Assembly (NCBI RefSeq): GCF_035083965.1
Contig: NC_089736.1
Location: 5,335,501 to 5,399,500 of the forward strand
DNA length: 64,000 bases
DNA from: Branchiostoma lanceolatum
Taxonomy: Eukaryota; Chordata; Leptocardii; Amphioxiformes; Branchiostomatidae
Direction of reading: 5' to 3'
The notes beneath the pieces are model-generated. The model did not search any database. It worked only from the letters and a program-made list of their open reading frames with translations, and had not been told where the DNA came from. A program made the translations under genes and the position numbers. Positions 1,115 to 62,100 of the stretch are shown here, in pieces. How positions within the stretch are numbered: the stretch's first letter is position 1; each line of letters opens with the position of its first letter.

Positions 1115-3057
1115 TTAATTCAGCTGAATTTCAATGTGAAGGGGTGCGACTACCTGATGGCTCTCCCCAAACGTCGACGCCCTTGTTCTCTTCGTCACGG
1201 TTTCTAACGGTTTGACGTTTGCCGCTTTCGACCCGCTCGCAATGTTTGCTCTACCCTTACGACAACAGGCCAGCCGTTCCCGAAACCGCTGACTCATCAA
1301 CGCGTACAGAAAGGGATTAACGGCAGAATTGGCGTGGGCAATCAGGGTAAAACTCCCGTGAAGAATGTACCCCTGGACCTCCCCCTGAAGCGCATACCCC
1401 AAACGTAAGAGCATGCTGATGAAGTACGGAGCCCAACAGATCACGAAAACAAAGATAAACAGGATCAGAACGCGAACGACACGCTTGGTGTTTACGTTAC
1501 GCAAGCGGACGCTGCTATGGTCACCGGCCGGCTGCCAAAACCACAAGTGCACTGCCACCCTACCGTACAACAGCCCCATAATAACAACAGGTAAACAAAA
1601 TAACATGAGAAACAAACACAGAGTGTATGCTGTCTCAGCTTCGAGAGAAGACCACTCTTCCTCGCACCTTAGGAAACTGAATTTTATCGTTAAGTTGAAA
1701 TAGTCACAGTACTCGTGTGTACAGGTTGGGTTCGAAGCTGAGCGTTCTTCGACTGTGGTTCGGACGCCGAGGTATAGAAGCATGGGGATGTAAAGCAGAG
1801 AGGCGACGGCCCAGATCAGGGTCACGGCGACGGTCAGGCGAACCCGGGACAGGTACCGCTGCGCCGCTAGGGGGTGGAGGATGGCCAGGTACCGCTCCAC
1901 CGAGATCGCCGTCAGGGACAGGACGCTTGCAGTCACGGATAGACCCTTGATGTACTGTGGTAACTGCAAGTACAGAATCACATGATTTTCTCCGTGAAAT
2001 ACTGTGGTAACTGGACGTACAGAATCACGTTATTTTCTCCGTGAAATGGAGGTATTATGATGGCTGCTGTTTGTTTTTGAGAGTGATGTTTGACCGCAAG
2101 ATAACTAGAGAGCGCTCGATGGATTGGCTTGACATTTGGAGTGTGGATATTTCAGACTACCAGTAAACCATACGTGTATATACACGAGCCAACAGCACTT
2201 ATCGAAAAGGGATCCATGCAAGCGTGAGTGGATCAAACCTTACAATCTGGACTTACGCAGCTTGTACCTACTGTACAAAACTGGTGTGTTACGCATAGAG
2301 GCTATATCATGTATGAATACCGGCTATGCTACGATCACAATTGAAAAACCGCCGGGAACTTTACGGGCTGTTGTTTTGCACTTTCGGGCATAACCCCTAC
2401 GCGTAGCTCCGTGGGACACCCTAAGGCTAACGGGCTATTTGAAGTCCCGGTCGGGCCCCGGGATTATTTCAACTCGGAGTTAAAATCAACCCGGGACCCG
2501 GTAACAAATAGACGCCGTGAGTTAATTATGAGAACACCGAGAGGTACCCTTCCGGTACCCGGCAGTCCACCGGGACAAATGTGTGTCTTCGGGGCCCGGC
2601 CGGGGCTGCACCCCCTACGGGCACCGGCGCGAATGTGACCGTAGCAAAATGCGGAACAAACAAACAAACAAACAAACATTACCTTGCACAGTAGGTCACC
2701 GTACTCCCACTCAAAACGATTGAGCGCCCAGAGGATGTGATAGGGGATGCTGAGCAGCGTGATGAGCAGGTCACTGACAGACAGGGACACCAGAAACATG
2801 TTCGTCACCGTCCGCATGGTCCTATCGAACACCACGGTGTAGATAACAAGGGTGTTTCCTATCAGAGAAGTCACAAGGATGACCATATACAACACTACTA
2901 CCGTATATCTATAGTACGGGTCCGTAGGTGAGATCAGCGCGTTGAAATGTTTACAAGGAACCGGCGTTTCGACGACGAAGGACGGTGGCCACTCTTCTCT
3001 GGGCACGAGTTCCTTGTAGTACGTCGTCGTATCGTTGACCTCGAAACAGTCAAACAT
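1115..3057 (-). CDS. Class A (rhodopsin family) peptide-type GPCR, two coding exons
   Basis: Predicted seven-pass plasma-membrane receptor of 407 residues. Exon 1 is 3057-2683 and ends AAG before GTAATG. Exon 2 is 1963-1115 and follows TACTTGCAG. Both boundaries are phase 0. Exon 1 encodes an extracellular tail with an NDT glycosylation site, TM1 (about 51-76, Gly-Asn at 67-68), TM2 (about 87-110, LSVSD) and the TM3 cysteine at 124. Exon 2 gives TM3 ending SVERYLAI (a DRY variant), an extracellular loop 2 with cysteines in CTHEYC, TM6 with CWAPYF, TM7 with NPFLY and a basic tail with Cys-Cys. The short N-terminus, ERY and NPxxY fit a beta-group neuropeptide receptor. The ligand class cannot be named from sequence alone. 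The ATG has A at -3. The intron holds nested mobile elements and a duplicated 3' splice site. Confidence 0.85.
1954..2047. repeat. 47-bp tandem duplication across the GPCR intron acceptor
   Basis: Two adjacent 47-bp copies (1954-2000 and 2001-2047) differ at only a few positions. Each contains, on the minus strand, an AG followed by TTACCACAGTA, so the 3' splice site of exon 2 exists twice. The copy next to exon 2 is the one that gives an open frame. Confidence 0.85.
2194..2678 (+). mobile_element. 3' part of a tRNA-derived SINE, split by another element
   Basis: Bases 2194-2326 match the 3' half of the fuller SINE at 21183-21572 (CACTTATCG, GGATCCA, CTTACGCAGCTTGT). The SINE end, AATGCGGAACAAA with a CAAA-rich tail, resumes at 2647-2678. 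The intervening 320 bp are a separate inverted-repeat element. Confidence 0.6.
2327..2646. mobile_element. 320-bp MITE with TGCTACG(G/A)TCACA ends
   Basis: The left end TGCTACGATCACA is matched in inverse by the right end TGTGACCGTAGCA. The interior is GC-rich (TCGGGCCCCGG). A second, truncated copy begins at 51003 with the same end and interior. It lies inside a SINE in the GPCR intron, so it inserted after the SINE did. Confidence 0.7.
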
Positions 3058-3177
3058 TTTTTGAGAGACGGATTCTCGACTACGACATAGACAAGGTACT
3101 GTCCAGTGGTAGCAAGGACTATAAAAATAAACCTTGGTGGTAAAGTTTCAAAACAGTTTTCTGTACACGTTTTTCAG

Positions 3178-14051: not shown

Positions 14052-14060
14052 GGACAAGCT

Positions 14061-15402
14061 TACTCTCCAAGCAGAGCTAGGGTTTCGGCTGGTTTTTAAC
14101 GTGTTTTTAGGCGTTTTTGTCATGCCTTCTACTTTGTCATCGTTTTTGTTGTGTCGCAAACCCAAGCTCTGCCGGCACTGACCTCGGGGCGGGGCAAACC
14201 TATTTACTTCCATTGAAAAAAAGGTGACAGTACTCCTCCCCGAGAACCATTAGATAATCATTAGTGGTAACAATTTTACTGCCCCGGATTATCACACATC
14301 CGGCAAATGTAGAGCGGCATTCACCAGGCCGCGCCGGTCCCCCGCTGACTGCCCTATTCATGCGTCCACGATCTCACGCCGGCATGATCATTGATAGCAT
14401 CATAACGTACATTTCCATTGGAAACCTCACAAGAAAAATACAATGATGCATGAACAAGACATATAAAATAAATATGTATTACGTATTAACTTGAACTGCA
14501 TTACAAGTTATTATCATTATCATTATCTCAGGCATCGTTAAATGGATTATGAACGGGAACACGTGCCTTGTTTACGTTACATGCGGTTACCAATGCCGCC
14601 GCTCGCTGTGGTCAGATTGGACGGAACTTTTCAACAACACCAGCGAAATTGGCGACGGAGCGCTACCAACAGAGACTAAAAAATCCCCACGACACCAGAG
14701 GATTGTTACAAATTTCTGTGTGCTTTGTTCTTTGATGGTTTTTGGATGGTGTAAATGAAGTGCGGTCACGATAGGCAAGTCATTTGCTGACGGACATGAA
14801 GCGACTTTCCAACATGGCGTCCTGATTCGGTTTTGTATGTAACGTTATTTGTGGGTAGTAGTTTAGAGACTTTTTGAGATTCAACGATATCCTCCCACTA
14901 CAGCATGGCATTTCCGCAGTGGGGATTAAAAATGAGAGAATCTATGGCTATCATAGTCGGGCTGTACATCGTCTTCTGGTACGACGGCCCAAATGGCCTG
15001 GATCGTAGTTGAGTATCGTGGAGACTCCAGATGTCTTTGGTTGCACGCTGAGCTATTATTTTCATACGAAAGTAATTGCAGTTAGCCAAGAGTAGGGGAA
15101 GCGTAAGAAAATGGCATGAAAACATGGCCACGACCGAGGATTATGTCCATGGTGAGACTGGGCCGGAAATTCTGTGGCGCGTGGGGAGGGAATCCCGTGC
15201 CTGGCCGGGCACGCTTCGCACTAACTTGTGAAACGCTTGTTATGTGTTGGAGTGATTAGGTTTATTAGGCATTGAAGCTTCCGTCTGCCGGCAGAGCTTG
15301 GGTTTGCGACACAACAAAAACGATGACAAAGTAGAAGGCATGACAAAAACGCCTAAAAACACGTTAAAAACCAGCCGAAACCCTAGCTCTGCTTGGAGAG
15401 TA
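14061..15402. mobile_element. 1.34-kb non-autonomous DNA transposon with 117-bp inverted ends
   Basis: Bases 14061-14177 recur inverted at 15286-15402 with no difference seen by eye, starting TACTCTCCAAGCAGAGC. GGACAAGCT flanks both sides (14052-14060 and 15403-15411), a 9-bp target duplication. The 1.1-kb interior has no transposase-like ORF. A diverged end fragment lies at 38826-38965. Confidence 0.85.
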
Positions 15403-17499: not shown

Positions 17500-17634
17500 T
17501 TACTCTCCAAGCAGAGGTTGGTGGAGAAGATTGTGACCTGTTTATCATATGCCCCGTTTTCTGCATGGAGAGTGTCGACAGAAAACGGGTCGTATGTGAT
17601 AGAAGGACACGATCTTCTCCACCACTATTCTTGA
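17500..17634. mobile_element. Fold-back element of the TACTCTCCAAGCAGA family
   Basis: It starts TTACTCTCCAAGCAGAGG. GGTGGAGAAGAT is matched in inverse by ATCTTCTCCACC, and CCCGTTTTCTG by CAGAAAACGGG. GGACTTC(A/T)C flanks it (17491-17499 and 17635-17643). The right end has decayed. Confidence 0.65.
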
Positions 17635-18280: not shown

Positions 18281-19711
18281 TTACGATTCTTCCTCCTCAC
18301 TATTCCCCAAGAAGAAGTCAACACCAGTTGCCATGTTCAAGAACCTTGACACAATTTTCCTCCTTAAAGGAAGCAGCTGAGCTCTTACACTTGTCGCGAG
18401 GGCACTTGAACCTCGGGCACAGCCTAGCAGCTTGTCAGACCTCAAACACTTGTACAACACTCTCCCGACATGATTGACGTAACGGTAGGACGGTTTCTGT
18501 GAGAAACACAGCCTGTCAGACTTCAAACACTTGTACAACACTCTCCCGACATGATTGAGGTAACGGTAGGACGGATTCTGTGAGAAACACAGCCTGTCAG
18601 ACTTCAAACACTTGTACAACACTCTCCCGACATGATTGACGTAACGATAGGACGACCTCTGTGAGAAACACAGCCTGTCAGACTTCAAACACTTGTACAA
18701 CACTCTCCCGACATGATTGACGTAACGGTAGGACGGTTTCTGTGAGAAACACAGCCCGTCATACTTCAAACACTTGTACAACACTCTCCCGACATGATTG
18801 ACGTAACGGTAGGACGGATTCTGTGAGAAACACAGCCTGTCAGACTTCAAACACTTGTACAACACTCTCCCGACATGATTGACGTAACGATAGGACGACC
18901 TCTGTGAGAAACACAGCCTGTCAGACTTCAAACACTTGTACAACACTCTCCCGACATGATTGACGTAACGGTAGGACGGTTTCTGTGAGAAACACAGCCT
19001 GTCAGACTTCAAACACTTGTACAACACTCTCCCGACATGATTGACGTAACGGTAGGACGGATTCTGTGAGAAACACAGCCTGTCAGACTTCAAACACTTG
19101 TACAACACTCTCCCGACATGATTGACGTAACGGTAGGACGGTTTCTGTGAGAAACACAGCCTGTCAGACTTCAAACACTTGTACAACACTCTCCCGACAT
19201 GATTGACGTAACGGTAGGACGGATTCTGTGAGAAACACAGCCTGTCAGACTTCAAACACTTGTACAACACTCTCCCGACATGATTGACGTAACGGTAGGA
19301 CGGTTTCTGTGAGAAACACAGCCCGTCATACTTCAAACACTTGTACAACACTCTCCCGACATGATTGACGTAACGGTAGGACGGTTTCTGTGAGAAACAC
19401 AGCCTGTCAGACTTCAAACACTTGTACAACACTCTCCCGACATGATTGACGTAACGGTAGGACGGATTCTGTGAGAAACACAGCCTGTCAGACTTCAAAC
19501 ACTTGTACAACACTCTCCCGACATGATTGACGTAACGGTAGGACGGTTTCTGTGAGAAACACAGCCTGTCAGACTTCAAACACTTGTACAACACTCTCCC
19601 GACATGATTGACGTAACGGTAGGACGGTTTCTGTGAGAAACACAGCCCGTCATACTTCAAACACTTGTACAACACTCTCCCGACATGATTGACGTAACGG
19701 TAGGACGGTTC
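18281..19711 (-). CDS. Open frame through an 81-bp minisatellite, unknown protein
   Basis: The frame is open for 477 codons from a candidate acceptor (TTTTCTCACAG ending at 19712) to a stop at 18281. There is no in-frame ATG at its start, and a TGA lies just before the acceptor, so it would have to be an internal-to-last exon. It encodes 15 full 27-residue units (LYKCLK(S/Y)D(R/G)LCFSQ, then SYRYVNHVGRV), a degenerate 16th and a unique C-terminus of about 48 residues ending NSEEEES. The unit length is a multiple of three and no unit carries a stop. Yet most differences between units change the residue (S/Y, R/G, K/N, V/L), which argues against strong purifying selection. A non-coding minisatellite that happens to be open remains possible. 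Confidence 0.35.
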   Translation of the reverse strand, partial: EPSYRYVNHVGRVLYKCLKYDGLCFSQKPSYRYVNHVGRVLYKCLKSDRLCFSQKPSYRYVNHVGRVLYKCLKSDRLCFSQNPSYRYVNHVGRVLYKCLKSDRLCFSQKPSYRYVNHVGRVLYKCLKYDGLCFSQKPSYRYVNHVGRVLYKCLKSDRLCFSQNPSYRYVNHVGRVLYKCLKSDRLCFSQKPSYRYVNHVGRVLYKCLKSDRLCFSQNPSYRYVNHVGRVLYKCLKSDRLCFSQKPSYRYVNHVGRVLYKCLKSDRLCFSQRSSYRYVNHVGRVLYKCLKSDRLCFSQNPSYRYVNHVGRVLYKCLKYDGLCFSQKPSYRYVNHVGRVLYKCLKSDRLCFSQRSSYRYVNHVGRVLYKCLKSDRLCFSQNPSYRYLNHVGRVLYKCLKSDRLCFSQKPSYRYVNHVGRVLYKCLRSDKLLGCARGSSALATSVRAQLLPLRRKIVSRFLNMATGVDFFLGNSEEEES

Positions 19712-19716
19712 CTGTG
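18432..19716. repeat. 81-bp minisatellite, about 16 units
   Basis: The core CTCTCCCGACATGATTGACG repeats every 81 bases with very high identity. Unit subtypes are defined by a few linked positions (TCAGAC or TCATAC; GGTTTC, GGATTC or GACCTC). Subtypes recur out of order, as expected from unequal exchange or gene conversion. Confidence 0.95.
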
Positions 19717-19927
19717 AGAAAACACATCATTGTTGGCTATGCATGCGGGTGGTTGGCAAGCACTTAGGCCGTACTGATTTGATTATATGGGTGACACCAT
19801 ATATAGACACCCTAAAATTGATGCGAGCGTGCGAAAAACAGTTGGACAAAAAGGTGCCTTAAACATGTTAAACTAGTATCATTGGATCACTTCTGCTGCA
19901 ATCTAAAAGATTAAAAAGAAAATGTTT

Positions 19928-31227: not shown

Positions 31228-32585
31228 CCAACAGGCAGAGGGCCGACGACAGGTGGGTAGGTCTGTGAGCCGGTTAGGCGGCAGGCACCGCTGAACCACC
31301 CGCCCTCTGGGTAGCAGGACAGGCCGCGGTCACACCTGCAGTCGGCACTGGACGCTACAGGGTACCCCAGGCTACAGGACTCGCCCTCCTGAAGGTGCGG
31401 ACCGCACGTGCCGCGGGAGTCACCTGGGGAAGAACCGTTACAGTCACGATCTTAATCTTCTGTTTTTGGTAGAGAAGAAAATTAATAAAGACAGGGAGAA
31501 GGAAGGAAGAGAGAAAAGGAGAGCAGAGAAGAAGAGGGAGGGAGAGAGAGAGAGAAAAACGACAGAGAAAGATAGGGAAAGACAAAGATAGGGAATGGAC
31601 AGAGAACGAAAAGATGGGAAGAAAGAAAGAAAGATGAGGGAAGGAATGAAGAAAGGAAGGAAGGAAGGAAGGAAGTATGTTCACAAGTCGTAATTAAACA
31701 CATAATGCAGTGCTCCTACCATTCATGCCATTTTCCTTCATTATAATCTTTGTTTAAGCACAAGATATTGTGAATTTTCTTCTGTGAAAAGTTGGTGGGA
31801 ATGAAATGATAAAAACAGATACCTGTGTCCGATGGCATGACCCATCCTGAAACGGCTGTTCCGTCCACCCGGCAACACCCTCCGGGGCAGTCAAGGTTGC
31901 TGTTACACTGTTTTCACAGACAATGAAAATTTAAAAAAAAACAAGCAAGCAAGACACAGTACGTCAGACCTCTTCATGATCTTCTTGGATTGACATACAC
32001 AATATTTTCTACATCGTTTGAAACCCTATCAAGCTCTGGGTATCCTGTGAACATACTGTTTCCAACGTATAAAACTGCTCACAGGCATTTTTGTGTATTT
32101 TGAAACTTAAGATGCAAAAATTAGACTTTACTTCAAACCTTGGGTATCGAATACAAAAACAGTACCCACAATATTTAACCACGAGAAAACTTATCCCCAA
32201 GCAGATGTTAGGATGACAAACCGTTACAGCATATGGAGGCGGTTTGCCACGAAAGCGGGCACCTAGGAAAATGTCTCCCACTATCTGCTCGGAGATTAAC
32301 GCTAGTTTACCTAAATCCGGTGCATCTTTCGATAAGAGTAAGCTGACACCAATCTGGTAAAAAAATAACCACCATTTCTTTCTTTTGTATGCCGATATTA
32401 TTGATTACCTTTGTCCCTGATGTTATACCTGTAAATACTAGAATATATTCCTAAATAGTCCGTTTTTAAACAACCCGGATATATATTACCCTGCAGATTA
32501 ATCTGAAGTAGCGTTACAAGAAAGTACTAACCTGTTGACCAGCAACCTGAGAGACCAGCACTACGACACACAGCCAAACCAACAT
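31224..32585 (-). CDS. Secreted cysteine-rich protein, prokineticin/colipase-like spacing
   Basis: Predicted 112-residue secreted protein from three exons: 32585-32532 (signal peptide, start CCATGTTGG), 31907-31823 and 31423-31224. Junction phases are 0 and 1. The signal peptide has the hydrophobic core LVWLCVVVLVS and ends near GQQ. The mature part has ten cysteines: CNSNLDC, then GGCC, GTCG, EGESC, ADCRC, GLSC and GAC. This order (C-x5-C, CC, C, C, CxC, C, C) fits the prokineticin/colipase-type fold by spacing only. A canonical AVIT-type N-terminus is absent, so receptor activation in the prokineticin manner cannot be assumed. A paralogue lies 0.8 kb upstream on the same strand. A TATA box is about 130 bases before the ATG. 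The stop codon sits in the TTAA of a MITE. Confidence 0.8.
31490..31680. repeat. Polypurine GA-rich tract
   Basis: GGGAGGGAGAGAGAGAGA and runs of AAGGAAGG on the plus strand, within the last intron of the secreted-protein gene. The long Ser/Phe/Leu frame on the other strand is an artefact. Confidence 0.85.
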
Positions 32586-35221: not shown

Positions 35222-37731
35222 TCATTCTTCGAGAGTCTTTTCTACTGGCCCCCTCCCTCCATGAACACTCACGTAAAAACTCGTATCAGAAGGATGTATA
35301 AGTTTCTCATGGAATAGATGTGTCAAATATTCGTTAAGGGTGCAGTCCCTTTTGATATCCTCACATATCCGACAATACCGGTCCGTATAAAACCCCTGGC
35401 CATAGCGCTTGTCGTTGTCTATTCTAGTTAACGGCTCGTAGGCATTATTTGTAGGGAATTTCGCGTAACTGCCGTTCCTAAAGCGTAGATTACGATCTCT
35501 TAGAAGCGTCATATAACAGCGTATTCCGAGTTTGGCGAGCGTACAGAAGGATGGCGTGATTACAAACATATCGTTCCATGCAGTCTTTTCAATGACAAGA
35601 TAGTCGCGTTCGCTGGCGTTTCCAATACAGAACTGGTGCATTTTCGCGTTCACCATTTTAAAATGGTCAACTTCTGAGAGAAAATCGTTGCCTAGTTCGT
35701 TAATTTTGTCGCGTAGAGTGTGGTTGAGTTTCTCGTAGAGAGGGTAGTCTACAACATCCCAGCGTTTGTGACTTTGACGCAGTCTCTCGCTGATAATTTC
35801 TTCCTTTTGGGCATAGATGTAACCATTTGATTTGTAGTATAATATGTCCTTTAGTTGCCAACACATTGTTCGTTTAAAAAGGACCAGCGATTCGTCGAAA
35901 AACTCGGTAACCATCACCAGGTCGAACTCTTCCGAAATCTTTCGAACGAAATCCCGAATGGTCGACGAATACTTTTCCGACTGGTTCCGAAGGCTCAGAG
36001 CCGTTGCACTGATGACTGCGGTGGGAGGGAACCCCAGGTCCATTGCCATAGGACTTTTGGTGAGGGAGGGGAGCCTCAGTCGTGGATTGTACCGGAGAGG
36101 GTGCTGTAGAAAAGTTGCCAATGGAGTCTCGCTGACTATGTTAAACGCCCGAGCAAAGTGGTAGTAGTTAAAAGACGATCTCAACTGACTCAGGGGCTCC
36201 CTTAAAAGCGTTACAAATGTCACGTTTTCCGGCTCGTTGAAAACGTTTACGATCGCTTTTCTGTCGTATATGGTGTGATAGGCCAGGATGTCAAAAGCGC
36301 CCCCTTGCGGAGGGAGATAGTTCGACTTCTGCTTCAACCCTTTCGGGTAGAGAAGGTTCATGGCACCAAGGACCTCCTTGATGGAACCGATATTACGCCT
36401 GCTCGGAATGACGAACGAAAGGTTCCGAAGATAGCCGAACCTGTGGAGGATCTGTACGAAGGATGTCCCGCCGGTTTTGTGGGTCTTGATGAAGACGATC
36501 TTGGTTCTTTCTTGACACGTTTTTCGGCTGTTTGCGTTTGGCTGAGACATTGTTGTTGGTCTGGCGGTCCCGTTGGACAAAGGCAACCTGTACAAAGGGA
36601 AGAACAGGATCAACTACCGTTAACATTTTTCTCTTAAGAAGGGGGTCAATGTACTGATTACATTAACCATAACAAGCATTATGCAAAGCCTAAGACTATT
36701 GACAGGATGATCCTGTCAGCAGTAGAAAAATTGCACTGCTGGCAGAATGATCCTGTCAATAGTCAATTCCTTCTGCAAATAAGAATCAAAGTTAAAGAAT
36801 CAAAATAAATAGTCAAGTAGTCATCGTATCATTGATTGAAACATGATATTTTGAGAGAAAAAATCCATGCTAACAGCTACGTTTTTATCTAACGCAAGGA
36901 TGAGTTACGACCTATCCCATGTGCTTTGTGCGAGTTCAAGATGGCGACCTTAATCTGCTGACATCTTCAAGATTTAGTCGAGAAACCAAGGGGTTTAAGT
37001 CAGTCACTTTCCTCATTTTTCCTTGTGTGCCTTGCAACATTATCAATATTGGAAGTAGCTATTGACAGGATCATCCTGTCAGTAGTAGAAACATTTGCAC
37101 TACTGATAGGATCATCCTGTCAACAGTGAAATTTGTTCTACTGTTGATAGGATCATCAATGTCAGTAGCCACTTCGTCATATGTTTACTTGCTGTGTATC
37201 TGCTGACACTGGCTTCAAGATTTAGAGTCAAGCAACCAAGTGGTTTAGGTCACTCACTTTTTTTCACTTTCTTCACTTTCCCCTGTATTTAACGATCACA
37301 CATGCGCCCAATAAACATTATCAACATGTGTAGTATATAATCGACTCTGACAAGCTTTTGACAAGTCATTAATCAAACGCTACTTGAGAATTTGTCCTTG
37401 AGAGGCATTTTCTTTAAAATCCAAACCAGCTTCTTAGGAAGCCGCCGAAGGCAAAAGAACATGTGAACGGGAAATCCTAGCCAGACTAGTGTTAGCCTGC
37501 TTTTAGCTGAATTAATAAATCACAGGCTTGTGCCTGAAACGTCGCCTACTTGGTAGAGTTTGTTGTTCTTGGCGGTCGCCCGGTCTGTGTGTGGAGTTCG
37601 GCCACATCGTGGATCACGACAGGCCGCAAGTCGGCACGTAGTAACCTGCTGCCGTCGTAATACCACCCCGCCAGGACGACGGCAGACGTGAACAGAATGA
37701 GCAGTGCGATCTTGCCGTGCGATTTTGCCAT
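35222..37731 (-). CDS. Galactose-3-O-sulfotransferase-like enzyme A (Gal3ST family)
   Basis: Predicted 515-residue type II Golgi membrane enzyme transferring sulfate from PAPS to the 3-OH of galactose; the exact acceptor is unknown. Exon 1 (37731-37550) encodes a short cytoplasmic tail and a TM anchor (about 8-23). It ends in a split lysine codon before GTAGGC. Exon 2 (36587-35222, after TTTGTACAG) carries the entire catalytic domain: the PAPS 5'-phosphosulfate loop IVFIKTHKTGGTS (about 91-103), YHTIYD, the 3'-phosphate motif LLREPLSQLRSSFNYY, and the family block EFFDESLVLFKRTMCWQLKD. An acceptor (CCAAACAG ending at 37739) just before the ATG implies a 5' UTR exon. The Cys-rich C-terminus (YCRICEDIKRDC) is absent from genes B and C. 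Palindromic repeats lie in its introns. Confidence 0.88.
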
Positions 37732-38825: not shown

Positions 38826-38965
38826 CGCCAAGCAGAGGAGGGGTTCTGGCTGGTTTTTGACGTGTTTTTAGGGGTTTTTTGTCGGGCTTTCTACTTTGTC
38901 ATTTTTTTATCTCTTCGAGGCCGAGGAGATGACAAACGACAAAGTAGAAAGCCTTACTTAGATTT
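38826..38965. mobile_element. Diverged fragment of the TACTCTCCAAGCAGA element
   Basis: CCAAGCAGAGG, GGCTGGTTTTTGACGTG, TTTTTAGG and CTTTCTACTTTGTCAT match the ends of the element at 14061-15402. It then folds back through GACAAAGTAGAAAG. Confidence 0.65.
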
Positions 38966-43929: not shown

Positions 43930-46900
43930 ATGTCCAAAAAGCTGTACCCTGCGATACCATTCTTTGTTCTTGTTTTGGGGTCCAGTCTTTATTTTTTACC
44001 GGTAAGTGAGCTGTTGTTGTCGGAAAATAATTTACTTATTGTACGTCTAAGATAATAACAGAATTGACATATTTTGTGCGTTAGCAATATGTGCACCGGG
44101 GCTTAAGTCAAATCTGAATGAACCTTTTATACGTTATTGCCAATGGCAAACCCCGCATTAGTATCGTAGATATAGAAACTTAATCTTCGTCGCTTGTATT
44201 ACATGTATGCCTTGTGCTTTACTTTATGTTTGTGCATCGTCATTAATTAGTCAACTTGCAATCAGTCTACGGGCATGAATTTGCAGTAAACCAATAACAT
44301 GATAATCATCAAAGCTCGTTTACCTACGTATTATAATAGGGCTCTGCAAGCAAAAGTTGTTGGTGTTTTAGGACCATGCATTTGATTTGTCACCCATGCT
44401 ATCTGTATGTCATATATTTCAGATTATTGGTAGAGTACGCACATCCTCACAACAAATACTGTCGTTTGATATCAGGGAATGGTAAGTAATATTAACGGGC
44501 AAATTTAGGTCAAAGGTTTCTCGAAACATCACTATGGGTCGTCCTTTGTATGTTATACAAGCCGATTCACGGATCTAACTGCGCATGCGGGGGTCGAAAT
44601 TGAAGGCCCATGAGACAAACAAAACACGTATGGACATTGTTCTTCAAACTCGCCGACGGAGGTTATATATGTACGTATCTGGACATGTTTAAAGAATGGT
44701 CAAGACCTGTTTACAAGTCAGGGACATTCACCTTTGACCTGCGCATGTGCAGTTGGGTCCGTGAAAGGGCTTATTGTTTCGTCCGTACCACCGACTCATG
44801 ACAGTCTCTGTTCAAAAAGCCTTTTTTCCGTAATAACAACAGGACAAAAATTCGTCATTCCTTTTTCGTGCAACAACGAGCAAAATTGATTTTCTTACCT
44901 GTGTTGGGCTAAGGATAGAACCTCCTTGAGTCCTTGGTTGCACAAAGGAATGAACTTTGAACAATCTGCAGACCTAAACAATACAACAAGAGAAGTAAAG
45001 CAAAATATTGGTATGTTTTTCAGGGGTAAAGATGGGACGATACCAGAAAACAAAGAGGCGACAAAAGCATTACCAACTGTGTGCAGTCCACGAAGAAAGT
45101 GGGTCTTCATCAAAACCCACAAAACCGGGAGTTGCACTGCTGGGGTCATAACTCGAAGATACGCCATCTATCACAACCTGACGGTACTGTACCCAGCCGT
45201 GGCCAGCGGGCCGAACATGCTCGCTTGGCCATTTCAACCCGCAGAAGAAGATTACGTCCACACCCCAGACGAACAGTATGACGTAATTTTGAACCACATG
45301 CGGTTCAATAAAACATGGCTACGGTCCAAGCTCCCAGCCGACACCGCTTACTTCTGTAAGTCTTAGCGCTGATTTTAACTCCGTCTATGGACTCTATGAT
45401 GTTTTGGTGTGTTTTGGTTTGCTTGTTTGTTTGTTTTAGTTGGTGTGTGTTGGTAGTTATTTGAATACACTGTCGGTAGTGACAGGTAGTGAGTGGGATG
45501 ATGACCGCAAAAGTCAGCCTCGCCTAAGTGGTCGGAAATATAGGTCAGAGGTGGAAGAACTAGTCAGACTTGACAATCCAGGTCATGGGGTCAATGGAAG
45601 GGGCTACTATTAGTTACGGGGAGGTATTGTTTTTAATCTGTCTGTTTGTGCTTTCGCAGTTATACATTTTCCATATGCTAGTTCGTATGTTACAAATGCA
45701 TATGTGATTTTATATAATCTATTCATTGAATATTGCCAGAATGGTTTGGAGGCCATCTATAAAAGAAGTCGAACCCCAAAAGATTAGATTGTCTTCCCGG
45801 ATGATAGCTGCTCCTAGAATATTCACTTGTTCCACTTTCCCCCATTTTGAACTTGCACTGTCTGTATCATTTTTTTCTATACATTGTTTCATCTTTTAAT
45901 TAGCCCTCGGGCAGGAACCTACAACTAAAATTCCTTTTTGACGTCCTTCCCTTTTTCCTACCAACAGCCATCATCAGAGAGCCAAGCGGACATTTGAAGA
46001 CCGCCATGAATTACTACAATCTTCCGAAGCTAATGAAAATCAAGTCTAAGAACCCTGTCCAGACGTTTCTACAGGACCCGTGGAAGTACAAGCACCTGTC
46101 TGAGGCTCACTTTGACTTCTGTGACATGACCTGGGACGGCACCAGAAACCACCAAGCGTTTGATCTAGGCTATCCTACAAAAGCGGCCGACGACATGGTA
46201 AGTCTGCAAGTCAACCTCCATATGTGGTATGTTTGTAGTCATGTGACTATCAAGTCACGTCATTTATCGTCCGCCATCTTGGTAGAGACCACCAAGCGTT
46301 TGATCTAGGCTATTCTAATAAAGCAGTCGACGACATGGTAAGTCTGCAAGTCAAACTCCATATATGGTGTGTTTGTAGTCATGTGACTATGACGTCATTT
46401 ATCGTCCGCCATCTTTGTATGTCAAATCGAATGTTTGTATGTTCTTGACATTTCATTTCATTTCACACCACAGTGGCATCGCTACTTGTTGCCTCTGCAG
46501 ATTTTAAAAACAATTATTGCGCGTTCACAATCAAGTTGTGACGTCACATTCAAATCAGCAATAGCATTAAGGATTGAAAAGGCCCCAGTGACTATCAGTC
46601 TCATACTTTTTGTCGACGCCTCAGGGGTGAGCCAAATGGTTTTTACTATTGTTTTGTGCTTGTCAAAGAAACTACACTCCAAAGACTCCATAGAAACTTG
46701 TCATCTGATAATTCAAAATTACTTCTTTTAAAATTCAGGAGCAAGCTCGCAGATACATCAGTGAACTAGAGGCCGACTTCACGACGATGTTACTGCTGGA
46801 ACACCTGGACGAGTCTCTGGTTCTCCTCAGACGGCTGATGTGCTGGGAGGTGCGAGACGTTCTGTACGACACAACACCGAAGAACAGCCGAAGTTATGCC

Positions 46901-50197: not shown

Positions 50198-53100
50198 TTA
50201 CTCTGCCTGAGCCTTATACTTGACAGTAGGTAGACCTTGAACAATACGAAGAACGTTATCGGCCACTCTCATGATTGTCCACTCTTTCCTGTCTTCCTTT
50301 GATGCTCGTTCTCTGATATACTTTCCGAGTAGAAGCTCCTGTGTTAGAAACAAAAGCACAGCAACGTATTACGGCTCATTGAACTTTAATAGATCTAGAA
50401 TACCTGAAACTACATTCGCTTTCATTTCAAGAATAACAGTCTGTTCTAGACTGACCAACAGTACTTGTAGTAGTAGCTTTAGTTGCAGAATTAGTATCAG
50501 TAGTAGTGGTAGTAGTCGCAGTAATAGTTAATCTCCAAGCAGATCTATAGGTTGCGAAGACCGTATCAAACTGGCAGAAGAAGTATGTTTTGCAACGATT
50601 GCTATACAAGCTCCTTCTTCCAGTTGGAAGCGTTCTTTGCAATCCATTGGGCCTGCTTGGAGGCTAGTAGTAGTAGTAGTAGTAGTAGTAGTAAAAACAT
50701 TACACAGAAACGCCTGACCGTTAACAAATCTATCCAGTTGCTTGAGTAATCGTTATCTTTTCTAATTCTAATCTATTACATACTTGGGATTGTATACGGC
50801 TGCAGTACTTGGAATCCACCGCAAATTGTCGACTCCATTTGGACGCCTCTATGGTGAGAGAAGGAGGGTCACATCGCCTTCTCTGTTTACACGTCCGGCA
50901 GAACGTGCCGACACGCTTCTTCACTTCGCGAAAGTAGCGCAGCTCCTCGTAGAAATCTGGACCCTGTGTGACAAAAGTGTTCGGACATTGAACATCTTGT
51001 AATGCTACGGTCACAATTGGAAAAAGGGGCCCCGCCGGGTAGCTTACGGGGGGGTCAACCTGCAGCTACCGGGCTATTTTTGGGCACGGTCGGGCCCCGG
51101 AAATGTTTAACTTGGAGTCAAAATCAACGCGGGGCCCAGTACCAAAAAATCGTGAGAACACCAAGAGGGAGCAGATTTGGGCAAAGTCGTACTCTACTTA
51201 GATGTGATTAGAGGAGCAAACTGGAGCTAGAATGGGATACATCTCAGATCCGAAGCAAGAGCCGACCTTGGCTGGGGAGTGGTCGGGAGCAAAGTCGTGG
51301 GAAGCTCCTACATGGATAACAGTGGCTTTACCTGTGCTGTAATCTTTCTCCACAAGGATGCGTTGAACGTGTCGTACAGTAAGTAATCCACGGCCTTCCA
51401 CCGGCGGAGATTGGTGAGTTCCTGGGCGGTGGGGATGTAAGATTTGTACGGGTAACTCCGATTGTTCTTTGACACGATGTCGTACAGAACGTCTCGCACC
51501 TCCCAGCACATCAGCCGTCTGAGGAGAACGATGGACTCGTCCAGGTGTTCCAGTAGCAAGACCAGCCTGAAGTCGGCTTCTAGTTCACTGATGTATCTAT
51601 GAGCTCGTTCCTTGTAGAAATAGAAAACGATGGGATGTAAGTTTATTAGCAGTTGTGGAATCATAAGAACAAATGAGGGATATAAACACTGAATTCTCAA
51701 TTCATTCCGTCAAAAAACTGTGAAAAATGAGTAATGACTTATCTAAAATAAAGTCCAACAGTCCACAACAACATTTTCTACACATGACAGGCACATGTAC
51801 TGCAGTATTTTCCCTTAGAGGTGCGAAAGGTACGTTCCAAAGATGGCATACCTATATATTGCAATACATGATTATAAATAGTAAGCACTTATTGCAGCCT
51901 CGTTTTGGTAAACTACCCCGATCTGACCCGGGAAAATTCAAAATGGCCGCCGTAATTCTACAAATTGATCGGAAATGGTCGGGCAAGCTTTAAAGGGATT
52001 TGGAGCTTTTAAAAAAAAGCTACAATCTTGCGCCAAATAATCTGAATTTAAGCCATGCCCAGAGTCTAGATATTTAGATACCTTGTCCTCTGCTCCCTCT
52101 GTAGGGTACCCCAAATCGAATGACATGAAGTTCCTGGTGCCGTCCCAGGTCACGTTACAGAAGTCAAAGTAAGCCTCAGACAGGTGCTTGTACTTCCATG
52201 GGTCCTGCAGAAACGTCTGGACAGGGTTCTGAGACTCGATCTTCAGTAGCTTTGGAAGACTGTAATAATTGAAGGCCGACCTCAACTGACTGCTTGGCTC
52301 CCGTATGATAGCTGTAAGTATGATAAACTTGATTGGACAATGTATGGCACCTTCTGTTTGATAACAATATTCTATGAAGACTCGTGTAGTGTGGAATGAC
52401 AATCTGCTTTTACAATCATTGATGGAATTTCTCACATTTATGCATTTTTGGCGACGCCTCAGGGGCGAGCCTAATAGTATACTTTACGCCCGATCTGCAA
52501 GAATTCCCAGAATTGTACAGGCATGTCTGGAATGTGTTCGTGCATAGTTGCAACATATGAGTATTCCCTGGGGAATTTGTTTTGAAGTGGCCTGTCCCTC
52601 TGTTGAATTGGAAGTAACAGGGTTGGCAAATAGTTTGATGGAATGTTTTGTCAAGGATTTTCAAAATGTATGTCTTTGATGTAATCGGGTAGTAATTACG
52701 GTTGTTTATTATAGCGTTTATTGTTATGATCTATACATGTTTATATAAAGATGTTTTGTATGTAACAAGGGCGAATAATATGTGGCACATATTTTGGGTT
52801 GATTAGATGCAATTAGAATGAATACGGATAGCTTGATGTTTTAAAAAACCTTTGTTGTTTGAATGAGTGACTCATTTGCAAGTAGTGTATATGTCATCAG
52901 TTTTGAGATAGTTGCAATGATCTACGTTTCGAAGAAAAAGGACAGCTACATTTGTATAGTATGGTTATATTCTTATTTTAAGAACATGATAAAAACATAT
53001 CAATATGTTTTGAAGCAATGTTGAGTATTCCACGACCCGGCACAGATACGGACATGTCAATGTTTTACGAGATAGAATCGATATCTGTAATATGGATGGA

Positions 53101-56100: not shown

Positions 56101-59100
56101 TGAGTACCGAAGCTGCTAAGTCTTCCCCTTTCTGTTCTTGGTTGAAGGTAGCCCATGAAATGACGAGGAATTTGGAACAATGGATCAAACTTCTTTACAC
56201 AAATTTGCAACCCTAACTGCGCCTTCGAATGAAACCCTCCATGGCCAAAGTCCCCCGGCAAATGTTCTCCCTATAGCCGGCGCGGTTAGTCTGGTAGAGA
56301 CTATCCTAAAAGCGTGCTTGATTGTTCGACTGTCGTTATCCCTTTGTGTCCTGTCGCATACTGGTTCCGCCTTGCCGTGGTCGGTTAGTTACGCGTTGCT
56401 GTCGGTTACGCCTTGCTGTTGGCGATTGGTTGCGCCCTGTTGTCGTTCACGCCCTGCCGTCGGTGATTGGTTACCCCCATCTCTCGGTTACGCCCAGCTG
56501 TCGGCGGTTGGTTGCGCCCTGCTGTGGGCGGTCTAGAATTAGCATGTCCAGCCCTGAGATCCGCAGGGACAACGTTCCCATCAGCTGGATGCCAGATGTC
56601 AACACAAAGAACGACACCTTTAGCCATGTTAGCCGGGCAGAGAAACACATGTTCCGCCTTTTAACTTAGGGTCTAACTGTCTGTAGTAACTTTTCCTTGG
56701 GGGTATGTTGACATGTCCTGGAGCCGAGAAATTTACTGGTCTGTGCAGGTACAGTACTTGAATCGGTCTGGCATCCAGGCTATGTAGGATCAAGTTGGTA
56801 GGATTGCTTCTTTTTTTTCATATGTACCCCTAACCTGTTTTTGTTGTGTTTGCATGTGTCTGTCTGTGTTTCCACATACTAACTAGTACACATCAGTTTG
56901 GGCAGCATAACTCAAGACATGCAAGACGCTACGCATAAAACACGTTGAAATTATTATCTCCATGCCGAAAATGGGGATATACATTGTAGTCATTGGCCTG
57001 TCTGCCTATGTGTCTGTTTGTGTTTCCGATTTCTTTAATCAGCATAACTGAAGAATCTCTGGATGGATTATAATAATATCTGGCATGTAGGTAGGTGTTG
57101 GGATGACGTATGTCAAGATCAATTTTGGACCGCCTTGTATGTAACCCTGGTACTGCAGCAGAACTTTTTTTGTATCATTTGACTTGGGCGTGCCATGGTC
57201 TTGATATTTTGGTGGCAGTTAACGTGTATAATGTAAGAAGGTAGTGTTGTAGGTTTGGGCCCCTTAGCAGCTTGCACTGCAACTACGTTTTTGTCAAAAT
57301 CTTCCAAGGAGAATACTAGGTAACTGAAGAAAGGAACGACGAATTTCCATGATATTTAGTATGCAGGCAGCTTAGCCAGAGATGTACATAATGAAGTAAA
57401 AATTATGCAATTAGGGACTGAATTTGCAAAATTAATGAGGGAAATCTATATTTGCAGTGTTTTCTATTATAGGATTCAAGTACATGTAGCAATTATAGTT
57501 TATGTCGCCGAAGTTAAAACAACGCCGAGTACTTCCACACTGTCCACAAAACTCCGGGGTACCATGTATACACAAGTATATACTAGCTTTGACTAAACTA
57601 AAGCTATGCATATGGATGTCTCAATTCCAGTTCAGCTTCTTCCAGCAACAACGGATTTTGATATTACCTTTATCATAATGCAGCTTTAAAGAAGCTTTGT
57701 CAAAATAACTTGCGTTGTAAACAGATTAATCATGAAGCCATTAAATCCGCGGTGGCAGGTAGCGTATCCCCGGAATCTAACCGGGACACATGAAATAGGA
57801 AAGCCCTGTGCTCTGGATACAAAACTTGGTTTCAGTACTAATCACAAAATGTAACAAGAGTCCGTAAGTCACAGTTACGTATGCCACATGTCTGAGATTC
57901 CTATCTACACAGTGCTACAAGAACATGAAATGCAATGGGTTATAAACTTTCCTTATTCATTATGCAAATTAGCGTCTGATTCGTATGATCTATATTTTAT
58001 TGTCTAAATCATTGCTCAAGCGACATACACTGTACCAAACATCATGACGAGCAGACAAATATAGATCTATAGTGGGCTTGTGGCTCAGTGGACTTTGAAC
58101 TAGTCATTTTGTGGAGGAAAAGCTCAAAAAGTCGAGTCAAGCCTCAAAAGTCAAGCCCCAGTTCATTAATATATAAATTGAAACATCCAAACCAATACCA
58201 AAAACTGGAAATATTGTCTTCGGTCATCCAGTGACCCGCGAACATCGGCCGAGCTCCGAAAAATCGCCCGAAGCCCGCGGAATCGCCAGGATGTCGGTCG
58301 TACTTCGGCCGAAAATCCACATTTGGACCTGGCCGACAAGTCTAATCTCCAAGCAGATCCACACCGGGCGCGAAAATCGTAGTATGCTAGCCAGAGAAGG
58401 TCCAGTCAGCCAGAGAGGGTCCAATAGCCCGGCAAGCAGATCCACACCGGGCGCGAAAATCGTAGTATGCTAGCCAGAGAAGGTCCAGTCAGCCAGAGAG
58501 GGTCCAATAGCCCGGTAGGGATCTGCCCCTAGACGGACCTGAACAAGGTTATTAACCGGCACGAGGAGGGGCAGCCTATTGAGAAAGGTGCCTCTACTCC
58601 TCCTCGTGCCTGCTTAACTCCAACATGAAAATTGGCTGGGATTATCGTTTTACAACCCCGAATCTGGGACGAACCCGGCCGGCCGCGCCATTTCACAGCG
58701 GGAGTTTCCCCTCAGATACAATAGTGCGGGAACACACCGCATCACAACGCATCAAAGCAAAGGTATCGACATACAGACTTTTCCGTTAGACAAATTTGCA
58801 CCATTAGTTTCTAGCTTGATGTTAAACCATAATTGATTAAAATGTCGTTTTATTTATGTGAATGCTTGGTGTGTCTTTTTTTTAACCACAACTTGGAATC
58901 TGTTTTTGGCCATTCTTTCACGCTTGGATGCGGTGCAAAACCACGCCGAAACACCGCCATCTTTCAGTGTCTTTGTATCTTTTTCTCACGTCTATATTCA
59001 GTTCAGTAAAACCCGAGTCTTGTCGTTTGTCATGTCTTCAGTTATGGCAGAAGCCATGGCGTCGTCCGGTGGATCGAGAAGTCTCTACATAACGTCCTTA

Positions 59101-62100
59101 CTTGGTCGCTGATTAGCGCTCGTAACGGTGAGACGATCGAAACAAGTTTTGTTTCACGGCAGACACAGCGGAATGTAATTTGGTAGCACAGGGATTTCCC
59201 CTTGCCCGTCGCAATCCCAACAAATACATCTTTACTCTCCAGACATGCTAGAATGGCATCTAGTTGAGTCTCCCTAATTTTAAACTCCCAGATAGCACGG
59301 AAATTACGGCGAACTCTTTCCGTCCACCAGCGCTTGCTTGCTTCCATTGTTATCTGGAATTCAAACCTGCCGGGTAACTGTGAGACGGCGCGCAGCTGAC
59401 CCATGACGGGCGCTGGGCTTCGAACGCCGGCACAATTCGCACCTTCTTTCTAAGCGCAGTTTGACTGCGAGGAGATTAGGTAACAATTGCGTGTTAATAA
59501 CCTTGTTCAGGTCCGTCTAGGGGCAGATCCCTACCGGGCTATTGGACCCTCTCTGGCTGACTGGACCTTCTCTGGCTAGCATACTACGATTTTCGCGCCC
59601 GGTGTGGATCTGCTTGCCGGGCTATTGGACCCTCTCTGGCTGACTGGACCTTCTCTGGCTAGCATACTACGATTTTCGCGCCCGGTGTGGATCTGCTTGG
59701 AGATTAGACAAGTCGGCCGAGCTAAATTGATGATTTGTGACGGGGGCTTAAGGAAAACAGCTGTTTCTCATTAAGGAACACACCAGACGTCTGCCTGAAG
59801 TTCTTTCTGCTGCCGCGCGATCCTTAACAATAAGGACAGATCCAAATGCCTAATAATATAGGGGTGCTTTGAAATATTACATTAACCATAAAAACAGCTA
59901 CGGCAAAATGAAAAGACGTGCATCATCACGAGCATATCTGCAGACGACGTGCCAAATTACACGCCGATACAACTAAGGGAACTGTGAATTTTAGCTGCGA
60001 ACATGTAAAACCAAGTAACTACAATACTCCTGCAGGAGGTATACCTCCTTTCACAGAGTAGAAATACATTGTACTTATGCCGTATGCCTATATATCTCCA
60101 TGCGTATGTATATGTATTGTTGGGTGAGTCGGGGGGGGGGGGTAGCACAGTGTATAGTAGTAGATTCAATCATGTTAACTTTCGACAATTGCAGAACATC
60201 TTTATGACAAACAGAACATGGTAGTTTGTACAGTGGAGTCCGACCGTCGTCCTGGTCATTTTACGCGCATCTAGAAATTAGACAAATCAGGCAAGACAAT
60301 TGCAGGACTTATGATGAACTTCGGATATGAGATAGACTCGTGTAAACCAGAATACAACTATTTGTCATCAACAAACATCGATTAAAACTCACCTTTCCAC
60401 CGTCGCCATGGCAATGCTTTTTCATTGCCACTCTTGTTAAACATAATTTCATAGAAATTATTTTATGTGTACAGGACAGGATTGTTTTTCGGGTACCTGA
60501 AGTTTGAATATAAACAAACATTTCTTACAGATGTAGGCTGTGTTAGCTGGGAACTTGGACCGTAGCCATGGTTTGTTGTACACCACGTGGTTTAGCAGGA
60601 CGTCATACTGTTCGTCTGGGGTGTGGACATAATCCTGCTCGGCAGGAGGGAAGGGCCAGCCGAGCAGATTCCCTCCCGTCGGTATCAGCACAGACAGGCT
60701 GTGACGGAGGGCGTATCTTTGGAAGATGTTCACTGCAGTGCAACTCCCGGTTTTGTGGGTTTTGATGAAGACGAACTGTCTTCGTGGATGACAAGTTTTG
60801 GACGACATTTCTGCTTCCTTTGTGTTGTTGTCTTTAAGGTCAGGTTGAGTCCTGAAAATAAAAGAAATCATAAGTTGTTTGTCTTATTATTACATGTGTA
60901 CATCAAATTGATACGCCTTCACGTTTTCTACAGCAAACGTCATTGGTCATATTTCACATATATTAACATTTGTTAGATAACTCCAAGCGGGTATATTTTT
61001 GTGGCTTACACATTATTTAGGAGACACTGATTTGGTTTGTTTTCATTTAACATTGTGGTGTAGTGACCAGTGACCATTAAATAAAATACAAGAATTTTTC
61101 AATAATGATATTACAATATTAGCTTCTATACATACAAGATCAATTCAACAACCCCCTCCCATGCTGATCCACTTATTGTGGTTCCAGGTAAAACCATAGT
61201 CGGTTTGTGGGGACCTCAAGCAGATTCCATGGAAGACCATGGACTAATTCTAGCTTCTCCACTGCCCAGTATCTGTTGCTAAACCATATTCATCCCCAAT
61301 AGCCATGCGGAGTTGTACTGAAAAAGAAACTGAATCCGTATGTACCGTTGCACGATGTTCTGCAAAGATGCTTCTTTAGATAACTGCCTTTCGTCTTGTG
61401 ATGTCCGTGGTCCACTTGTTGGACCTATGCCACTTCGAAGAGTCTTATTATTCTGTAAAAAGGCAAAGAGTATTTAAACAAGAGCCGGTCGTACCCTGAG
61501 TAAGGCTGTAAGTAAGTGCTCCCACTGTGACCTTCCGAGAAGTTTGATGGGTGAATTGGCCCCCATAACTGTATAAACACATACAAAATACAGACTTCTA
61601 CAAGTTGAAAACAAAGGCATGAGCAGATGGAACTAACCAAAAGTTTCAAATATTTGTCTCTACTGATTTTCAAGTAAACATTATTCAACCATGGAGAATG
61701 GCCCAGATAGTTGCAACAAAGGTACGTTATCAAGGCAATACTATCTGAAACTTTCCGTTTTTGGAAAAGCAATTTTGCGATCAAATTTCAACTTTCAAAC
61801 CAGCTCTATCAGACTTGTATCAAAGTGTCTAATTTTATCTATGTTTGCAGCTTTCAAATGTCTTCCTCACAGCTGAATTAGATTTGTTATAGTTGTGTGG
61901 CTAGAAATGGGACTAGTAACGACTGGTATATATTTGTCAGTCTAAGAAACTAGTATAGACAGGGGCTATGTACATGGAGAACTGTACAGTCAAACTGCCA
62001 GCCATGTCTCGCATTACCAATAAGAGCATGGAAAGCCAGGCTTGTCAGTAGCTTAGATTCATGGTTAGGTGAATGATCTTTAGGTACAACAATGCTTCAA

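Follow-up and report, generated by a model that had tools for sequence, protein, structure and literature searches.

A 1364-bp interval in the amphioxus Branchiostoma lanceolatum is almost certainly a non-autonomous cut-and-paste DNA transposon, and it encloses a piece of a RecQ-type helicase gene. The interval spans positions 58343-59706 of the window, by which we mean the whole 64-kb stretch of contig NC_089736.1 that was analysed. We put at roughly one half the probability that the helicase piece is what remains, at the 5' end, of a RecQ-type gene once carried by a larger parent element. This origin appears somewhat more likely than capture of a host gene piece. The element and its insertion site are composed as follows.

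58335-58342, plus strand: left target-site duplication GACAAGTC, matching 59707-59714 exactly
58343-58556, plus strand: left terminal inverted repeat of 214 bp, starting with TAATCTCCAAGCAGATC, perfect complement of 59493-59706
58350-58432, plus strand: first 83-bp tandem unit of the left arm
58433-58515, plus strand: second 83-bp tandem unit of the left arm, same sequence as the first
58390-58509, plus strand: four subterminal 18-bp iterons GCCAGAGARGGTCCARTM, starting at 58390, 58409, 58473 and 58492
58558-58611, plus strand: strong hairpin adjoining the left arm (folding z -5.38)
59042-59404, minus strand: open reading frame (ORF) of 120 residues with RecQ-type helicase motifs I and Ia, matched by Pfam DEAD, TIGR00614 and solved RecQ proteins
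59100-59101, minus strand: GT of a weak donor-like site, CAA/GTAAGG, after LISDQ (residue 101)
59493-59706, minus strand: right terminal inverted repeat of 214 bp, containing 83-bp units at 59534-59616 and 59617-59699
59707-59714, plus strand: right target-site duplication GACAAGTC

The inverted ends agree at 214 of 214 bp, and all four 83-bp units, two per arm, are identical. Arms and units are the sole inverted repeats of at least 20 bp within 57800-60200, and the window has no further copy of the complete 214-bp arm. G+C content is 55% in the arms and 48% in the interior. The GCCAGAGARGGTCCARTM iterons, two per 83-bp unit, are mirrored on the right, each arm being the perfect inverted copy of the other; they are possible transposase-binding repeats. 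Perfect 214-bp ends, an 83-bp duplication in each arm and an exact 8-bp GACAAGTC repeat had been claimed in the first-pass annotation of this DNA, and comparison of arms and flanks bears them out. Its further claim of recent activity likely holds for the insertion, judging by the perfect arms and the exact duplication; arm-to-arm copying could likewise keep the arms perfect.

Joining 58331-58342 to 59715-59718 restores the empty site, GGCCGACAAGTCGGCC, a near-palindrome centred on the duplication. Counted outward from the centre, 7 of its 8 steps pair, a value equalled by 31 of 63980 window centres. Since this was spotted post hoc and the site of a second, related element (described below) lacks such a palindrome by eye, no target preference is claimed.

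The helicase likeness of the element resides in the minus-strand ORF 59404-59042. It is matched by Pfam DEAD (E=4.8e-10) and, over residues 42-105, by the RecQ family model TIGR00614 (E=1.3e-14). The latter score, 53.9 bits, is below the full-length cut-off of 219.8, as expected for a fragment. Among solved RecQ proteins, the top match is Bloom syndrome protein (4e-9). These matches confirm the RecQ-type motifs proposed earlier for this strand: ATGKGKS and SPLRAL, which we take to be motifs I and Ia, have their first bases at 59212 and 59131. The likely start methionine, picked by eye, lies at 59347, 145 bp inward of the right arm. In six frames, no Pfam match to motifs II-VI or the RQC region follows the DEAD piece. 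The fragment cannot be a working helicase, given that these later motifs are missing. Pfam likewise detected no transposase in any of the six frames of 58343-59706 and, DEAD aside, no family at E up to 1. Rfam gave no match in the window at gathering scores.

How far the fragment stands from known RecQ helicases was estimated against solved chains, some of which are presumably bacterial. Its highest scores are 39.6 bits with Bloom, 33.3 with RECQ5, 29-30 with RECQ1 and 25.3 with RECQ4; with WRN it scores 17.8. It is identical to Bloom at 30 of 62 aligned Bloom residues. Over the same stretch, Bloom itself scores 68.5, 66.8 and 52.7 bits with three bacterial RecQ chains, about 64 with RECQ1, 54-55.5 with RECQ5, 42.2 with RECQ4 and 26-29 with WRN. 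The piece is unlikely to be a recent copy of the host's BLM, RECQ1 or RECQ5, because 39.6 bits lies below the 52.7-68.5 bits between Bloom and bacterial RecQs, as measured on solved chains. A fast-evolving WRN- or RECQ4-like gene is harder to dismiss as its source.

Relatives of the fragment were also sought elsewhere. An 82-residue piece gave 38 pattern matches in viral contigs, none confirmed as a close relative. In bacterial genomes, 14 loci out of 203 pattern matches show 34-48% identity to the fragment, a likeness that is biased because the loci were chosen by shared peptides such as LRALISDQ. On a profile of these bacterial loci the fragment scores 42.7 bits, below the 53.9 of TIGR00614. 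Within the window, 1760 stop-to-stop segments of at least 25 residues were compared. The best match besides the fragment itself has E=0.74, so the window contains no donor gene.

We then considered elements sharing the ends of this transposon. Its 17-bp end motif TAATCTCCAAGCAGATC, with up to three mismatches, has eight matches in the whole window against 0.11 expected. Two belong to the first element, two to a second one, three to two miniature elements, and one is a lone copy at 17501. The related elements, together with a one-sided relic, are listed here.

14061-15402, unstranded: second element of 1342 bp with 117-bp perfect inverted ends and an exact 9-bp duplication, GGACAAGCT
50529-50666, unstranded: 138-bp miniature element sharing the end motif, flanked by GTAATAGT and GTAGTAGT
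32191-32298, unstranded: 108-bp miniature element whose ends are decayed versions of this motif
17501-17517, plus strand: lone end-motif copy, starting an apparent hairpin-type miniature element (by eye)
38828-38908, plus strand: one-sided relic, 84% identical to the second element's end over 81 aligned columns

The second element looks recent, and its 1.1-kb interior has no Pfam match at E up to 1. The flanks GTAATAGT and GTAGTAGT differ at one base, but lie within a GTA-rich stretch. The flanks of 32191-32298 show no 6-12 bp duplication, even when one mismatch is allowed. Both GACAAGTC (58335-58342) and GGACAAGCT (14052-14060) contain GACAAG; these are two cases, and the agreement may be chance.

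The two larger elements are alike not only at their ends. Their left interiors align beside the arm with a score of 38, segment 58562-58608 of the first resembling 14185-14244 of the second. This score was reached by 1 of 1000 shuffles and, against the second element's side, by none of 942 random window pieces, and four wrong-side or wrong-strand interior pairings scored 18-27. Taken with a denser control, described below, a shared left interior is suggestive, such a score arising about once or twice per thousand in each comparison. Only the first element has a strong hairpin adjoining the left arm; the counterpart in the second has z -0.80, and 45 of 200 shuffles fold equally well. Sequence likeness is therefore claimed at this place, not a conserved hairpin.

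End motifs were also scanned for in viral contigs, yielding one stretch for TAATCTCCAAGCAGATC and 36 for TACTCTCCAAGCAGAGS. All 37 loci, with up to two mismatches, have one end only, some of the contigs being partial, and 32 of them have one flank in common, beginning ATACC. Because of the single ends and the common flank, these loci were rejected as transposons and are taken as matches inside viral genes. A literature search on the end motif retrieved only unrelated titles among the matches listed, and LanceleTn, a name for amphioxus miniature inverted-repeat transposable elements, had no literature match.

Descent of the helicase piece from a parent element is favoured because it diverges from the better conserved RecQs, because the inward ORF is intact and because RecQ is a known transposon passenger. 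The ORF runs inward from the right arm, a position that would suit the first exon of a parent. A plausible course of events would begin with a larger element carrying a RecQ-type gene. An internal deletion would have taken the rest of the helicase gene together with the transposase, sparing the two arms, a single subterminal hairpin and the initial coding stretch. The 83-bp duplication may have spread between the arms via gene conversion or template switching. A transposase from another element would cut and join the inverted ends in trans, its staggered cut giving rise to the 8-bp duplication.

Several points weigh against descent from such a parent. No autonomous copy was found, and viral contigs scanned by protein and by two end motifs gave none. 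No helicase is found in the second element, 14061-15402. TTAA duplications of Kolobok and 3-4 bp duplications of Academ do not fit 8 bp. Low scores alone leave a fast-evolving host RecQ possible, since Bloom itself reaches only 42.2 bits with RECQ4 and 26-29 with WRN, and hosts may have divergent RecQ-like genes that lie outside transposons. The denser control used 2408 pieces of the window, overlapping and from both strands; a score of 38 was reached by 4 of them (one site) against the first element and by 3 (one site) against the second. The likeness of the right interiors is weak, being equalled by 8 of 1000 shuffles, 34 of 942 pieces and, in the denser control, 50 and 61 of 2408. The RECQ4 and WRN scores and the denser control weaken two of the arguments for the parent origin, which stays at about one half.

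The alternative that stands up best, tenable yet less probable, is that a non-autonomous element took up part of a host gene, RecQ-like but divergent, in the manner of Pack-type capture, possibly with an intron edge. That the second element has similar ends and no detected helicase agrees with it. So does the fact that WRN and RECQ4 are about as distant from Bloom as the fragment is. On the contrary, the fragment's best score of 39.6 bits compares with 54-68.5 for Bloom with RECQ5, RECQ1 and the two nearer bacterial RecQs; it reaches only 25.3 bits with RECQ4 and 17.8 with WRN, and no donor gene turned up among the window segments. The idea of a captured host helicase exon, which headed the first-pass annotation, is somewhat weakened by this distance from the best conserved RecQs. 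The remnant of a helicase-encoding parent, which it offered as the other option, fits slightly better, with the viral contig scans giving no such element.

Capture would also gain from the donor-like site CAA/GTAAGG, situated near the point where RecQ similarity stops. The GT proposed after LISDQ is indeed present. It scores 4.15 bits out of a possible 8.54 on a matrix entered by hand, and is a possible, weak splice donor. Such sites are common: 76 in the window, on both strands and with this one included, score equally well or better, i.e. 0.59 per kb per strand. RecQ likeness continues past the site for 3-4 residues in solved-RecQ scoring, 4 in TIGR00614, 3-6 in RecQ chains, 8 in Pfam DEAD and 9 in the bacterial-loci profile. 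Part of this run-on is trivial, as any GTN codon gives the expected valine. A stop of similarity 3-9 residues past the donor could equally mark the edge of an intron, the point of a deletion or simple divergence. The statement that the piece kept its genomic intron edge goes back to this single weak site.

It is improbable that the helicase piece came from another transposon, such as a RecQ-carrying Kolobok or Academ, which inserted into or recombined with the element. RecQ genes are reported in both groups. However, 57800-60200 holds no inverted repeats of at least 20 bp beyond the arms and their units, and the six-frame Pfam comparison is devoid of transposase. Inverted duplication by replication error is very improbable, although template switching also makes long perfect arms with tandem units. 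The paired duplications already contradict it: the arms here are bounded by an exact 8-bp direct repeat, and the second element, which shares the end motif, is bounded by an exact 9-bp direct repeat of its own.

Returning to the parent element, a more specific proposal is on the unlikely side. It supposes an animal lineage outside Kolobok and Academ, with 8-9 bp duplications and CTCCAAGCAGA ends, whose autonomous members would carry a RecQ-type helicase acting in transposition, the present element being a deletion derivative.

Further features of the window concern other genes. Galactose-3-O-sulfotransferase gene pieces (Pfam PF06990) account for 5 of the 10 scanned window ORFs, and two exons are of rhodopsin-type receptors. 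The cluster of sulfotransferase pieces and the likeness of the end motif to amphioxus ones would fit an amphioxus host.

35222-36613, 44890-45366, 51308-51709, 51938-52483 and 60458-60883, on both strands: galactose-3-O-sulfotransferase gene pieces
1115-2029 and 2464-3147, minus strand: rhodopsin-type receptor exons (Pfam 7tm_1)
18281-19726, minus strand: long frame free of stop codons in which VGRVLYKCL occurs 16 times without change, probably a tandem repeat of the DNA in frame by chance

By itself, the element is a well-formed yet ordinary kind of mobile DNA. If its parent carries the helicase, a transposon group with duplications of 8-9 bp would gain a RecQ gene, and the question becomes the role of an unwinding enzyme in cut-and-paste transposition. 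If the parent lacks it, the element is a neat example of a short defective transposon with part of a gene inside.

Known systems resemble the element in different respects. Foldback elements and Galileo-like P elements have long arms, internal tandem repeats, 7-8 bp duplications and a near-palindromic target. The likeness is a resemblance only, as the first element has no transposase by Pfam and its terminal bases differ. The GACAAGTC duplication is unlike the TTAA of Kolobok, and the exact 8-bp repeat is unlike the 3-4 bp of Academ. Both groups are alike to our element as RecQ-carrying transposons: the available excerpts describe RecQ helicases in KolobokH and Kolobok-1_CCri (PMC9587614) and in Academ (PMC3627910).

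We agree with the first-pass annotation that the superfamily is not assignable from the ends alone; the 8-bp duplication recalls Zisupton/KDZ or MULEs, and the 9-bp one MULEs. MULEs and Pack-MULEs have long inverted ends and about 9-bp duplications, and can carry gene pieces. In duplication size the second element, with 9 bp, agrees with this group, and no MULE transposase was detected by Pfam in the first. MuDR-like elements are reported with 9-bp duplications (PMC3627910).

Zisupton/KDZ was compared by description, and the excerpted KDZ accounts mention no RecQ helicase. The 9-bp duplication of the second element is unlike this group, and Pfam detects no KDZ transposase in the first. The first element, in turn, is like it in having an 8-bp duplication and long inverted ends: Zisupton/KDZ elements are described with 8-bp target duplications (PMC12730594), KDZ1 with inverted ends of 241 bp, and KDZ2 and KDZ3 with duplications of 4-8 bp (PMC12810828). 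Branchiostoma floridae is among the best matches of Zisupton-like proteins (PMC9297572).

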